Below are positions 1 through 61,636 of a DNA stretch of 64,000 nt, in pieces. Source of the stretch: Ilex aquifolium (Eukaryota; Streptophyta; Magnoliopsida; Aquifoliales; Aquifoliaceae). The stretch is taken from contig OX637405.1 of NCBI GenBank assembly GCA_951799425.1, positions 17,581,089 to 17,645,088 of the forward strand. Reading direction: 5' to 3'. A program made the position numbers and the translations under genes. The notes under the pieces are model-generated. The model was given only the letters and a program-made list of their open reading frames with translations. It was not told the DNA's origin and did not search any database. How positions within the stretch are numbered: position 1 is the first letter of the stretch; each line of letters begins with the position of its first letter.

Positions 1-756
1 GGCACCCAAGGATCTTGAATCTAACTAAGATTATGGAGATTGAGAAGGCTATGAGGTTTGTGGAGAGGAAGATATTGCTTTGTTCCAAGTGAGCAAGAAC
101 TCTCCCTACTCTATGCTAGATTCACCATCGGAAATTGAAGAGCTCCTCCAAAGTTCTTCAACTCTCTTCCAAACCTAAAGAAATCGGTGCATGCAAAAAA
201 TGTTCTCCACTCCCACTCTCACTCCACCGATAGTGCTAGGCTAACACTCCAAGTGTTTTGATAACTCATCTCACATTTTGCTATTTACTATTTTGACCCC
301 TCTTATTTTCTTTTATCAGATAATTCTCATTTAACTTTTTGACACAAAATAAATCACACCCAAACTTTTTGTCATCCTATAATTCGATCCCATAATTTAC
401 CATCAAAATTACTACTCAACTTCCCATAATTTCAATAGCGACAATCCAACCCCATAGCTAATATTAACAAACTACATTTTTAACCCCAACACTAAATGAA
501 ATGTCATGTAATGCATGTTCATTTCTCATATCCCAAGCTAAGATTAGATGGATGGATGATTTTCCAGAAAAGTACCACCGTCCGGACGCAAGATTGACGA
601 CGTTCCAAGAATGTGATGTAATGATACAAAGTAGCAAATTCCAGAAAGTTAAAACCATCCGGACGCATGAGGCTTTCCCATTCCAGAAATTTAGAATCAT
701 CCAGATGCACCTGACACCATCTGGATGCACATGGATATTCCATTCCAGTGAGTTCC
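1..756. other. Unassigned repeat-like sequence with TCCGGACG words
   Basis: No coding region can be supported here. The part from about 575 to 735 holds repeated short words of the form CRTCCGGACGCA and decayed variants such as CATCCAGATGCAC and CATCTGGATGCAC, separated by a repeated AATTCCAGAAA-like phrase. This is the same kind of CG-centred palindromic array found in the LTRs of the window, so the stretch is probably the end of an LTR element cut off by the window edge. It ends where the LTR of element A begins. Confidence 0.4.
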
Positions 757-2946
757 TATAACGCCCCAAAATCCACCCTGGAAGGCATTACTATCTACAA
801 ACCATCCAATCATGAGAGCAACTAAAAATAACCATTAAGTAATAAACCATTCATCCATTTTACAAGAAATAAATACTAAAGCCAATAAAACATTGTAACT
901 TCTCCAACCTACAATTCAAAACCAAAGAATATCTAACAGCAGAATAATAAAAACTAGCTAAAATATTGTTTCATAAAAATCTCTGAAACTCTAAAACAAA
1001 AATAGAACAACTCTATTCCTCTAAGGCAGGATCCACATCTTGATCCTCCAACGGCTCGTAATCAATCTGCTAATCCATATTGACATCATCTTTTATGCCA
1101 AAATCTATCAGTGGGTTGTAGGGGGTGAGCAAAAGCCCGTAGGAAATCCCTCTCAAATCCCAAAAAAGTTTTTAAAACAATAAAAAAACGACAAGTCTCT
1201 TTTGGAAAATAGCATATATAAATATTTGAGAGTAAACCATGACAATTGTAATGATCTCAAATGTACGGAATATAGTAAATCAATGATAGGAATAAACATG
1301 CAAGATATTAAGGTAATTAATAAGTAAATCAGTAGCATCATCCCATATTCTCATATATGTTGGTTCATCCCAATTCTCATGTATGTTGGTTGCGTCTCAG
1401 GAATCTACACAATGATTCTACCTCGTTGACCCATCACAACCACACAATCTCAATCATTCCCCGCAGGGCCCAATCAAAACCATTTTAGGAAGGGCGTATA
1501 CCATCTCCCACGACATTGACGAATCCTTTCCAAGAAAGGTATACCATCACTCAGCCTTGAACCTACGTGAACAATAGTGGTTGCTCTCATAAATAACAAT
1601 CCACTACAAGTGTTAGACAGCCATTTCACCCCCACTGGGATAGACTAACCTCTAACACTCTACGACAGCTCTTGAAGGCAATTCAAGTCTGTCACACCCA
1701 AATAATACAAGAGGTGAAACCACAATTTTCTCCACAACCACAATCTTAACCAATCACAACTTCCATTAACAATTCAAGTATCACAATTGCAAAATTCTTA
1801 ATATACTATAGTATTAAAGGAATCAAAATATGCAAGAGATCATATGAATAAAAACATCACAATTTCGATATCAAAATTCTAGGTTTTTGCCAAAAATCAT
1901 GATTTCTTGGAACAAGAACAAATATTAGATGAAAACATAATCTAATCAAGAATCCATATGAACTTCACAATCGAACATGTATTTTGGAAAAACTAGGGTT
2001 TTGAAAATTCAAGAACAATTATTCTTTGAACACAAACAGGTATTTTGTTCAAAACTATGTTTCAATGATAAAGAAACCAAGAACTCACAAGTATTTATCA
2101 TATAACTATCAAGAAGATTGAAAACATATATATATATATATAATACCCTAAGTCTCAATGAAAGAATTGAAGAAGAATCTCCTACCTCGATTCTGTAGTT
2201 TTTGTGTGAAAACCTAGCGTATTTGATCCGTTCCAACGTGAAAATCCCCCTTAATCTCGTGTTTCTCCTCTTCTCTCTTGCTCTCCAAGTCTCTCTAGGG
2301 TTAGAACTGATGAAATAGGGCTAGGGAAGATGTCATTGGGTATTTATAGTATGAGAAAATAGTCCAATTAGTGTAAATTTGATACTCAGAATCGCGACCT
2401 CATGTTCAGACTAGAGGCTTGACGTTCGAACTATCAACCTGACATTTGAACGTCATTTTGGATTTCGAACATTGCTTGCTCCTAGTTTTTTGCTTTTCCA
2501 TCAGAGTTCTGTCAGACAAAAAAGTACTGGGACTAAATGTCATTCGAACGGATCCATTCACGTTCGAATAGACTCCCATTTTTAGCTGAACTTCCAATGA
2601 AATTTTGGCCTATTTAGAGGTTGATTTGGAAAATTTTCGTGAAATACTCTTTTGTAGCCCTGGAAGATTAGTATCTACTCTAAAAATTTCAGATCAAACG
2701 AACATCAAGGTAAAAGGTTATGGTCCAAATACTAAGGCAGTGAAAAATTCCTTCGTACCCAAATTCTATCTAAAATGTACTTTAACTCGGGAATACTTCC
2801 TAACTTCTACTACACACCCTATTACCTCGCCTAACATTTTTATTTCTACTCTTACAATCTATATAGTTCATGCTTACATTATTACATATATGAGCATTTC
2901 AAAATAATTACGTTACTATATAAAGATAAGCATGCGGGGGTTTACA
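757..2946 (-). repeat. LTR of element A (3' LTR)
   Basis: About 2.19 kb, bounded by a GTAACGCCCC-like left end and a GGGTTTACA-like right end on the plus strand, and preceded on the minus strand by a polypurine tract. Reading in the LTR sense (minus), it holds a shared ~120-bp block (2722-2600), then TTCGAA words (about 2571-2402), then a TATA box reading ACTATAAATACCC (about 2352-2340). That order is typical of a U3 promoter. No good open frame is present. Confidence 0.85.
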
Positions 2947-60072: not shown

Positions 60073-61636
60073 GGAAACAAACAAGCAGCTTACCCAAGGC
60101 GCCCAAGGCAGCCCCACTGCTCGCCTGTGCTGCGCGCCTAGCGACCCCACATCCTCTGCCCGCCTGTGTTGCGCACCTAATGGTCCCACCTAGCTTGAGT
60201 GCTGCCTCCTCGCCAAAGCAAACCTACCCCACCGAGCAAGAATGCCGCCTGTTCGCTCAGGCTGTCCGCGTGCCAAGGCAGCTCGTCCAGGCAGTCCAAA
60301 TCAGCGTCTATAGGCGCCTGCGTAGCTCTCCTCCCTCTGATCTGCTCGCCTAGGCTGCATGAGTAGGCGCCCAAACTAGCCTGCTCGCTAACCTTGCCAA
60401 GCTGCGCGCCCCTTTGCTCCATTGCGTGGACAACGCACCCAGTCTGCACCAAACTAGCACGTTGGGCGCCCAGATTACCTCCATCATGGTCTCCAACCAG
60501 CGGAGCACCGGACAGCCCCATGGATGTGTAAGCAATAGCGGCGGCGGACGCCCCAAGCACCTCCACGCCAGCGCCTGCCTCCCTCTCTTCTCCTTCGATC
60601 ACTACAACCTCTTGATTATCTCATTCACTTGCCATTAGCACAACTCAAGAAGCTCCTTAAAGGATTTTGGGGAATAGAGCTCTCTTCCTCTCTCAAGATT
60701 GAATATAATGGGTAAAATGAAGGAGAAATTTTCTATTTATAGTCCAAGGTTTCTTGGAATCAAGGAAAAAGCAAAAAGGCCCAATTCAAAATCAAGGGCT
60801 CTTCTAGAATTCAAAAAGGGGAATAAAATGAAGAGTTTATGTAGCTGGAGACGTCCTACAGAGCTAAAATATATATCAGGAAAAAGGGAGGATCCTTGGT
60901 ATGTGGAACCCCGCGACCTATCCGGGCAGGTCGATCCCCGAGTCATAAAGCAACATGGACGTAGCGGGAGTGGAGTCTTCTTGGGTCAGAATTCAAATTC
61001 AATTGAATGCCCTCTTCTCCAAGTTTCATTGGACATGGAGCATTGGGGGGGCAAATGATGGGCCAGGCCCAAATGGCCCAATCCATGTGGGAAGCCCAAA
61101 CTTAATTAAGAGCCCAAGCTTATAGAAGACCTAGCAGGCCCTATGAGGTTCAAAGCCAGTACGCCACCAAGGGAGCATCCAGGAGCCTCACCCTCATCCG
61201 CTTGGAGAGAGTCAATCTTCCCTCATCCTTTGACCAAGTCCTTTGGAGAGCACCGTAACTTCCTTGCCCGTTGAGGAGATGAGAGGTCGCCATGATATTT
61301 AGTCACTATTAAAGTCGCCCCAACCCATTATGACTGTTTGATTAGCTATTTAATTAATATTCATTATGAGGCGACTACTATAAAATGTAAGCCCTGCCAA
61401 CACTTGGGGGGCATCACACTCATTCTGGCATCATTCTCTCCTCACCCTCTCAAAGCTTGTAATTATTTGCTCCACACTTGAGTTAATAAAATACCCGGCG
61501 ACCCCTGCCATTCAAAGTGGAAGTAGGTCACCTTGGCCGAACCACTATAAACCTTGTCTCCTCTCTCCCTCTGCTTATTTTACTGCATTTTATACTACTT
61601 ACTTGACAGGTGGTGTGCAAACCAATTTGTGCATCA
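60073..61636 (+). repeat. H: LTR-like block with GC-rich word array
   Basis: No ORF or match in the window. 60083-60560 is GC-rich with repeated GGCGCCCAAG, GCGCGCCTAG, CTGCTCGCCTG and similar words. A TATA-like TTCTATTTATAGTCC follows at 60731-60745. A CTTGAGTTAATAAAATACCC polyadenylation-like site lies near 61482, and the block ends near TTTGTGCATCA (61636). This promoter-to-end order is that of an LTR. The owner is unknown; a Tat-like owner is possible because F uses similar GCGCCCAG words. Confidence 0.4.

Follow-up and report, generated by a model that had tools for sequence, protein, structure and literature searches.

Arrays of CG-centred palindromic words, putative promoter-proximal cassettes in Ty3/gypsy retrotransposons of Ilex aquifolium

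We analysed a window of 64 kb from Ilex aquifolium (contig OX637405.1, positions 17,581,089 to 17,645,088, assembly GCA_951799425.1), which consists of nested long terminal repeat (LTR) retrotransposons and carries arrays of short palindromic words with CG at the centre. Further loci (L006, L010, L016 and so on) come from the same genome, which has a size of 800 Mb and was searched in part. We favour, with some reserve, the reading that the arrays are promoter-proximal cassettes for predicted dimeric DNA-binding proteins in Ty3/gypsy retrotransposons. The words are enriched, their dyad symmetry extends to ±5 and they lie mostly upstream of TATA boxes. Furthermore, the same word stands at two promoters in three families, homologous slots carry different words, arrays gain and lose units, and linkers are shared. 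The carriers are Tekay-like elements (T), Athila-like elements (X, C, B/D and G) and an LTR family (E), as listed in Table 1.

Clustering, symmetry and position of the words

In the window, CG-centred palindromic hexamers form 108 same-word pairs within 200 bp, whereas 3.5 are expected from 100 block dinucleotide shuffles (standard deviation 1.9, maximum 10). TTCGAA (58 pairs observed, 1.02 expected) and ACCGGT (26 and 0.14) are followed by AACGTT (9 and 0.32; many overlap TTCGAACGTT) and GGCGCC (8 and 0.09). AGCGCT (3 and 0.10; at most 3 copies per 200 bp) and TCCGGA (3 and 0.34; at most 2 copies per 200 bp) give a weak signal in the window, and arrays of both are clear in some relatives. Thus, the CG-centred arrays described in an earlier sequence-only reading of this window are real, but its list needs pruning. 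The coordinates that it gave for TTCGAA and ACCGGT were borne out. Arrays are also present at 3504-3690 and 6818-6908, which it had assigned to AGCGCT, but they are better named CAGCGC/AGCGCC arrays. Its TCCGGA locus at 580-735 holds two exact and several one-off words, and that at 27479 lacks TCCGGA and consists of two one-off words.

Two further words were pruned or qualified. CACGTG, which had been proposed as a word class, has five copies and no pair within 200 bp. The two loci concerned (17275-17515 and 26025-26260) are located within the two LTRs of one element, T2/T3; in each LTR, a tandem duplication of 205 bp has a 13-bp doublet (GTGCACTGTTCAC) at its end. This is a segmental duplication and not a palindrome array. 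Of the eight GGCGCC pairs, seven are found at 49944-50304 and 60313-60470, loci not classed as promoter arrays, and one in 39890-40130. The stretch 50080-50330 was left out because it is within an open reading frame (ORF; 49819-50511) beside an RVT_3 (RNase H-like) ORF; the GGCGCC words there belong to 39-42-bp repeats. The stretch 60080-60480 was left out because its carrier was not identified.

We also counted the words in 20 random 10-kb stretches (200 kb; the first 20 of 100 drawn, contigs C1-C18). CG-centred words form 105 same-word pairs there, against 8.1 expected. This ratio is 12.9, and the ratios for words centred on GC, AT and TA are 5.7, 1.6 and 1.8, respectively. TTCGAA (42 pairs) and ACCGGT (32) lead, and AGCGCT (0), GGCGCC (0), TCCGGA (2) and CACGTG (2) are unremarkable. 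Thus, the arrays are not confined to the copies in the window. Five CG-word arrays of the LTR-element kind were found in three of the 20 stretches. Two clusters were excluded from this count: ATCGAT in L013, with three copies in AT-rich DNA, and ACCGGT in L019, which was not seen within an LTR array and is symmetric at ±4 in 0/3 sites. At L019:6860-7030, ACCGGT and CCGGTTCGAACCGG-like words lie outside any LTR identified and possibly belong to another repeat class. Another random stretch (L009:5360-6021) has an array of AAGCTTAT, which is not CG-centred, with up to 12 copies within 300 bp.

The symmetry of the words extends beyond the hexamer. Bases at ±4 are complementary in 90 of 125 clustered sites and in 92 of 328 isolated sites, and those at ±5 in 85/125 and 96/328. 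At ±6, the counts are 37/125 and 85/328, and the symmetry ends at ±5 (the counts include 20 fetched loci upstream of PF20167 ORFs and L049, and clustered sites are not independent). Because clustered sites are complementary at ±4 and ±5 and not at ±6, the principal unit is a dyad of 10 bp: CGTTCGAACG, GTACCGGTAC, CTACCGGTAG or CGTCCGGACG. CGAACGTTCG is a palindrome of the same composition as CGTTCGAACG. Some words exceed 10 bp; for example, the E3 array has the 20-bp palindrome AAAACCTACCGGTAGGTTTT at 58754. Clustered AACGTT sites are symmetric at ±4 in 4/13 and at ±5 in 2/13, and clustered ATCGAT sites in 2/6 at both positions.

The position relative to TATA boxes was determined for 14 arrays, in LTRs and internal, the orientation of which is given by homology or coding parts. 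TATAWA is present within 150 bp downstream in 10/14 arrays, compared with 17.3% of random points, and upstream on the same strand in 4/14. The corresponding values for YTATAAA are 8/14, 4.6% and 1/14. Several of these arrays are homologous and, therefore, p-values overstate the difference. The E arrays, the 580 locus, T2/T3 and the GGCGCC loci were omitted because their orientation or class is unclear. In the T1 family, we sampled every second of 40 scored copies out of 2,590 candidates. TTCGAA is present in the slot of 20/20 copies (between 1 and 5 exact words across the 210 bp covered by the count), and TATAAATA follows the last TTCGAA in 14/20 copies, 13 times at 54-76 bp and once at 142 bp.

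One word at two places and different words in one slot

The sequence-only reading had placed every array in an LTR. However, the arrays at 3504-3690, 39890-40130 and 56863-57155 and the word pair at 27479 are not in LTRs. These internal arrays of X, C and G and the word pair of D lie upstream of the ORF for PF20167, an Athila accessory protein, and several arrays sit between the integrase and this ORF. In three families, the same word was found at both the LTR and the internal place. Element X has CAGCGC words at both, and five of seven fetched relatives carry such words at the LTR place. G1 and the element at L016 have TTCGAA words in both arrays. L016 holds a G-family copy in one stretch, with a CRP-like region, an array, a TATA box, a segment that is 74% identical to the PF20167 region of G1, and an LTR with an array. 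The third family has TCCGGA, mostly as CGTCCGGACG, eight times upstream of PF20167 in L045, where the array stops 14 bp short of a TATA box; in its LTR (L049, the same locus as L045), TCCGGA occurs four times, 66 bp before a TATA box. L046 is probably a close copy of L045, with identical word positions.

We then examined PF20167 loci systematically (rows 1 to 134 in steps of seven, from 150 scored out of 6,661 candidates; best-scoring families are favoured). In 15/20 loci, the region upstream of PF20167 has a CG-word array that 0/100 shuffles equalled on one of two statistics. Eleven of these arrays are of the AGCGC type, two of the TCCGGA type and two of the ATCGAT type. ATCGAT words, some as TGATCGATCA, were seen in a tandem-like stretch upstream of PF20167 in L047, L048 and L078.

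Duplication of a whole array as the source of the same word at both places was rejected because the word-masked linkers differ. When the internal and LTR arrays of one element were compared, 32/200 shuffles (G1) and 196/200 shuffles (L016) scored as high. The linkers of the G1 internal array and the G2 LTR array score above all 200 shuffles, yet 8/200 random genomic stretches are as high; judged from this likeness, these two might still have some common origin.

In homologous slots, the words differ. The slot of Tekay-like LTRs, with recognisable flanks, contains the CGTTCGAACG type (T1 and 20 relatives), GTACCGGTAC (T4 and L010) or CTACCGGTAG (L023). In the E family, the LTRs of which are 69-75% alike in aligned flanks (L006 is based on 170 bp including the array), the slot contains GTACCGGTAC (E1 and E2), CTACCGGTAG (E3 and L006) or AAAACCTTCyrGAAGGTTTT (L043). 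L043 has two copies of the latter with CA or TG at the centre, and no CG is left. Each word change in the E family alters both halves, and the dyad is kept. The presence of one word in different types of carrier, as proposed by the sequence-only reading, is supported. Unit number also varies: among 13 T4-subfamily copies (13 of 40 scored matches, with an upstream flank 95-96% identical to the query), exact word copies range from 1 to 5, and two of the 13 keep a single exact word.

Linkers of Tekay-like LTR arrays resemble those of Athila-like internal arrays. With the words masked and the internal array of L016 as the counterpart, 20/20 T1-family copies exceed the 99th percentile of random genomic stretches, and 16/20 score above all 600 shuffles. 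Against the G1 internal array, the values are 11/20 and 15/20. Against three G-family LTR arrays, both measures give 0, 0 and 1 of 20. Belonging to one family, the 20 copies represent a single event. The highest scores among random genomic stretches (53 and 54) are above those of all T1 copies, but the pool included L016 and L023, which carry G-family arrays. In the first linker test (17 pairs), the counts for T1 itself were 1/200 and 2/200 shuffles and 5/200 and 1/200 random stretches. These scores suggest that the Tekay-like LTR and the Athila-like internal promoter probably share one cassette by descent, which would have moved between the lineages. Exchange of an ACCGGT cassette between T and E was not retained, as the linkers are short and score as in shuffles.

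Carriers and neighbouring features

Integrase after reverse transcriptase is the gypsy order. The T and PF20167 elements have this order and gypsy-type domains and, therefore, belong to Ty3/gypsy and not to Ty1/copia. The Tekay-like and Athila-like labels are provisional. Tekay/Del chromoviruses have an iMet-type primer binding site (PBS), the order gag-pro-RT-RH-INT and a chromodomain at the C-terminus. T2/T3 has the iMet-type PBS at 23952 (minus strand) with 0 mismatches; its tail was judged by eye, and the only Pfam match there is SH3_Tf2-1. The Athila-like elements X, C, B/D and G have a PF20167 ORF in 4/4 cases. Athila has a tRNA-Asp-type PBS besides a PF20167/ORF1-type accessory ORF, and this PBS pattern was matched once, in C, with 2 mismatches. 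We infer that B and D are one element split by the insertion of a T element. The E family is represented by LTRs alone.

Table 1 Arrays, carriers and PF20167 ORFs in the window
Feature	Positions	Strand	Description and basis
TCCGGA-type words	576..740	.	2 exact and several one-off; carrier not identified
T1 LTR, Tekay-like	757..2946	-	3' LTR of minus-strand element; alignment, termini; ends by eye
T1 array in U3	2425..2568	-	TTCGAA x4, 0 perfect 10-mers; TATAAATA 76 bp beyond
X internal array	3506..3690	+	CAGCGCTG / CAGCGCC words; TATA ~3717; upstream of PF20167 ORF
X PF20167 (Transposase_32) ORF	4213..5433	+	Pfam 2.4e-45
X LTR array	6820..6905	+	CAGCGC word as in X internal array; TATATATAAA 88 bp beyond
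E1 solo LTR	9218..11085	+ as drawn	TG..CA, repeat CTAAG; orientation not independently shown
E1 array	9687-9718	+ as drawn	GTACCGGTAC x3; inside E1 solo LTR
T2/T3 element, Tekay-like	15237..26555	-	repeat TAATC; LTRs 97% identical
G2 LTR array	19527..19890	-	CGTTCGAACG type; TATAAATA 90 bp beyond
134-aa ORF of B/D	26805..27206	+	carlavirus nucleic-acid-binding-like, between integrase and PF20167; Pfam
D internal word pair	27483..27513	+	two one-off words; TATATATA 5 bp beyond
D PF20167 ORF	27637..28746	+	Pfam 8.6e-26
E2 solo LTR	35678-37566	+	repeat CTAAC; contains E2 array
E2 array	36136..36231	+	ACCGGT x6, 4 of them GTACCGGTAC
C PF20167 ORF	38286..39023	-	Pfam 3.7e-43
C internal array	39890..40130	-	AGCGCCTAGGCGCT / CAGCGCC; upstream of PF20167; TATAWA absent within 300 bp
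T4 solo LTR, Tekay-like	42620-44973	+	repeat GCTAT; contains T4 array
T4 array	43126..43188	+	ACCGGT x4, 3 of them GTACCGGTAC; TATAWA absent within 300 bp downstream
G1 LTR array	54665..54774	-	TTCGAA x5; TATAAATA 97 bp beyond
G1 PF20167 ORF	55547..56410	-	Pfam 6.2e-19
G1 internal array	56866..57160	-	TTCGAA x9, 8 in palindromes of at least 10 bp; TATAAATA 15 bp beyond
E3 array	58690..58780	+ as drawn	CTACCGGTAG x2 and one-off words; orientation basis as for E1

The 134-aa ORF of B/D matches PF05515 (4.5e-9) and PF01623 (2.7e-6). Such an ORF, named CRP-like after the cysteine-rich nucleic-acid-binding protein of carlaviruses, lies between the integrase and PF20167 in an Athila-like family, and the copy in B/D is intact. 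Relatives were found at 57816-57436 (minus strand) and in L044, L028 and L016, and 3/4 have a stop in the aligned part. At the place matching the internal word pair of D, the relative L070 has CCGTCCGGACGG. Two other tandem repeats were seen. At 6059-6156, downstream of the PF20167 ORF of X, a 37-bp tandem unit (CGAGATGGAGCGTAAAACGCACTCG...) has CG-bearing inverted halves. In the D LTR, a 183-bp tandem repeat occupies 34724-35053, and ACCGGT occurs before it at 34463 and 34624 (region 34463-35053).

Interpretation and comparison with known systems

In the reading that we favour, each repeated dyad word is probably recognised by a DNA-binding protein that acts as a homodimer. The sequence-only reading had suggested that the palindromes suit dimeric factors, and a dyad of 10 bp agrees with this. 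The cassettes would act as enhancers, in most cases shortly before the TATA box of the promoter in the LTR. In PF20167-bearing elements, a second cassette would lie upstream of a second TATA box before the PF20167 ORF, and with the same word at both promoters, one factor would drive the genomic and accessory transcripts together. The protein would bind as a dimer, would activate transcription from the TATA boxes near the arrays and would be encoded by the host. An element-encoded factor is less likely because the Tekay-like array copy L023, as far as it was covered, has no additional sense ORF. Methylation-sensitive binding may give the CG centre a role.

Constraint on the words was gauged from shared CpGs. 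In five comparisons between copies, word CpGs are shared in 21/24, 12/26, 18/29, 19/26 and 18/27 cases, and other CpGs in 27/52, 9/29, 17/61, 9/51 and 27/101. The words are higher, with p<0.005 in four of the five (Fisher p: 0.0043, 0.28, 0.0026, 3e-6 and 2e-4), although word columns were defined by their resemblance to the word, a choice that biases the comparison somewhat in their favour, and the pairs reuse copies. In the second of the five pairs, the words diverge more than the rest (0.300 vs 0.201).

Besides this bias, several observations weigh against promoter cassettes. Clustered AGCGCT sites are symmetric at ±4 in 8/14 and at ±5 in 1/14. TATAWA is absent within 150 bp in 4/14 arrays, namely the internal array of C, T4, L010 and the LTR array of L016. 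L050 and L053 have no word at the expected LTR place. Element D has a degenerate internal word pair only, and its LTR TATA box is not preceded by a palindrome array. Of ten further PF20167 loci, picked by hand among lower scores, one has an array. Moreover, array copies within one family are not independent.

Could the words be bound by a protein of the element itself? The arrays would then be element-specific anti-silencing operators, at which a VANC-like protein (perhaps from the PF20167 or the CRP-like ORF) shields the promoters from methylation. In VANDAL elements, VANC targets are described as one-orientation arrays that are bound by the protein of the transposable element (TE) and lose methylation (Hosaka 2017, PMC5735166, in the passages drawn on here). 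Like these targets, the arrays here consist of short words in tandem in non-coding TE parts, words differ between related families and arrays gain or lose units. One word stands at two non-coding places per element in three families, and in 4/4 window copies, the internal array or word pair is followed by PF20167. Unlike VANC targets, for which 'palindrom' does not occur in PMC5735166 and the binding protein is known, the arrays here have candidate ORFs only. Tekay-like LTRs carry arrays too, and L023, which extends from gag to integrase, has no further sense ORF of at least 110 aa in the part seen; T4 is a solo LTR, the element of which cannot be judged. The carlavirus-CRP-like ORF was rejected as a universal binder because it was not found upstream in the TCCGGA family (951 bp upstream of PF20167 in L045/L046). 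The predicted structure of PF20167 (mean predicted local distance difference test score 50) is too poor to judge. We consider this explanation unlikely.

It also seems improbable that the arrays are neutral products of slippage and recombination, with CG palindromes as one sort of many. A CG palindrome is repeated at least three times in only 11 of 42 short-word array regions from the window and the sample (defined by four or more occurrences of any non-trivial 8-mer within 300 bp), which counts against a special status of the CG words, and the other 31 regions favour a neutral origin. The range of 1 to 5 exact copies behind almost identical flanks in the T4 subfamily points the same way. However, neutral arrays do not predict a dyad to ±5, a position before TATA boxes, dyad-preserving changes in the E slot or the excess of CG centres.

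The least probable explanation is an RNA or DNA hairpin that is selected or recognised by the host, with transcribed arrays folding and feeding small-RNA silencing, an idea put forward for the palindromes of Sirevirus LTRs in maize: small RNAs are in excess over Sirevirus palindromic clusters (Bousios 2016, as summarised in the part of PMC10760457 cited), and seven arrays folded as RNA beat shuffles on average (z -1.7 to -8.5), as the suggestion of small hairpins in the sequence-only reading would have it, but any self-complementary word array folds and this result does not discriminate, two of 13 T4-subfamily copies keep one exact word, and arrays upstream of a TATA box should lie outside the transcript. 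Moreover, a palindrome without a spacer is a poor hairpin by itself.

The sequence-only reading knew of no named system that fits. However, Sirevirus RM boxes have the same layout: a palindromic word is repeated before the TATA box of the LTR and again before env (Bousios 2010, PMC2829016). In the passages of that paper used here, RM words vary between elements, can be near-identical in elements of distant hosts and have one consensus per element; a CGG-CCG signature is present in 12/13, each element has at least 8 copies, the carriers are Ty1/copia, and the authors call the motif Sirevirus-specific relative to other Ty1/copia elements. Like RM boxes, the arrays here are repeats of a dyad word (AGCGCT sites mostly to ±4 at best), cluster upstream of a TATA box, and in three families, although not in element D, have the same word before an env-type ORF. 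In copy number, G1 (9 + 5 TTCGAA) and L045/L049 (8 + 4 TCCGGA) reach the level of RM boxes, and T4 has 4 in its LTR and its 13 relatives 1 to 5. As for the CpG-island trait of RM boxes, 5/21 regions here pass the rule (GC above 0.5 and observed/expected above 0.6 in the central 200 bp), and CpG density is above 94% of background windows in 12/21 regions. In contrast to RM boxes, many arrays here are shorter, the words are CCGG-, TTCGAA- or AGCGC-centred without a CGG-CCG core, and the carriers with coding parts are Ty3/gypsy. The feature works like an RM box but is not filed as one because the core and the host group differ.

Two other known features were compared. Del (Tekay) LTRs have a plastic CpG island at the 5' end, a CpG-rich stretch of variable extent in their 5' half, although eudicot Del and monocot group II had none (Cruz 2014, PMC4029996). 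The Tekay-like LTRs here have such a stretch too, but PMC4029996 does not mention palindromic words (0 'palindrom'). Accessory 3' ORFs after pol are described for Retand (PMC11963269), and PF20167 in sense orientation for sunflower Athila (PMC11728184), in the passages seen; a reference title in PMC11963269 states that the Grande accessory gene has its own promoter. Here too, PF20167 is in sense orientation in an extra ORF after pol. Unlike in our elements, dyad arrays before the ORF are not described in those passages of PMC11963269 and PMC11728184. We recognised no Ty3/gypsy dyad arrays in the literature by title or abstract start, which is not proof of absence. Among viral contigs, there were no confirmed relatives; three pattern matches failed in tblastn.

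Set beside RM boxes, three points stand out here: words that differ between families, a word that can stand at two promoters of one element, and, in one case, a stretch that two lineages have in common. A feature reported as Sirevirus-specific extends to Ty3/gypsy lineages, and this points to a cross-lineage cassette. More tentatively, plant Ty3/gypsy elements may share a transferable promoter code, in which 10-bp dyad cassettes cross lineages, half-sites switch symmetrically and one word serves both promoters. It is similarly conjectural that the half-sites GTACC, CTACC and CTTCC of the E LTR family and GTACC, CTACC and CGTTC of the Tekay-like LTRs track related dimeric factors. The natural half-site variants of the 10-bp words are concrete baits for the protein that would drive these retrotransposons. 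If such a code exists, retrotransposon lineages would compete for, or escape via, a small number of DNA-binding proteins of the host. Provided that the factors are of host origin, the regulatory conflict between TEs and their host would be legible in the word switches.

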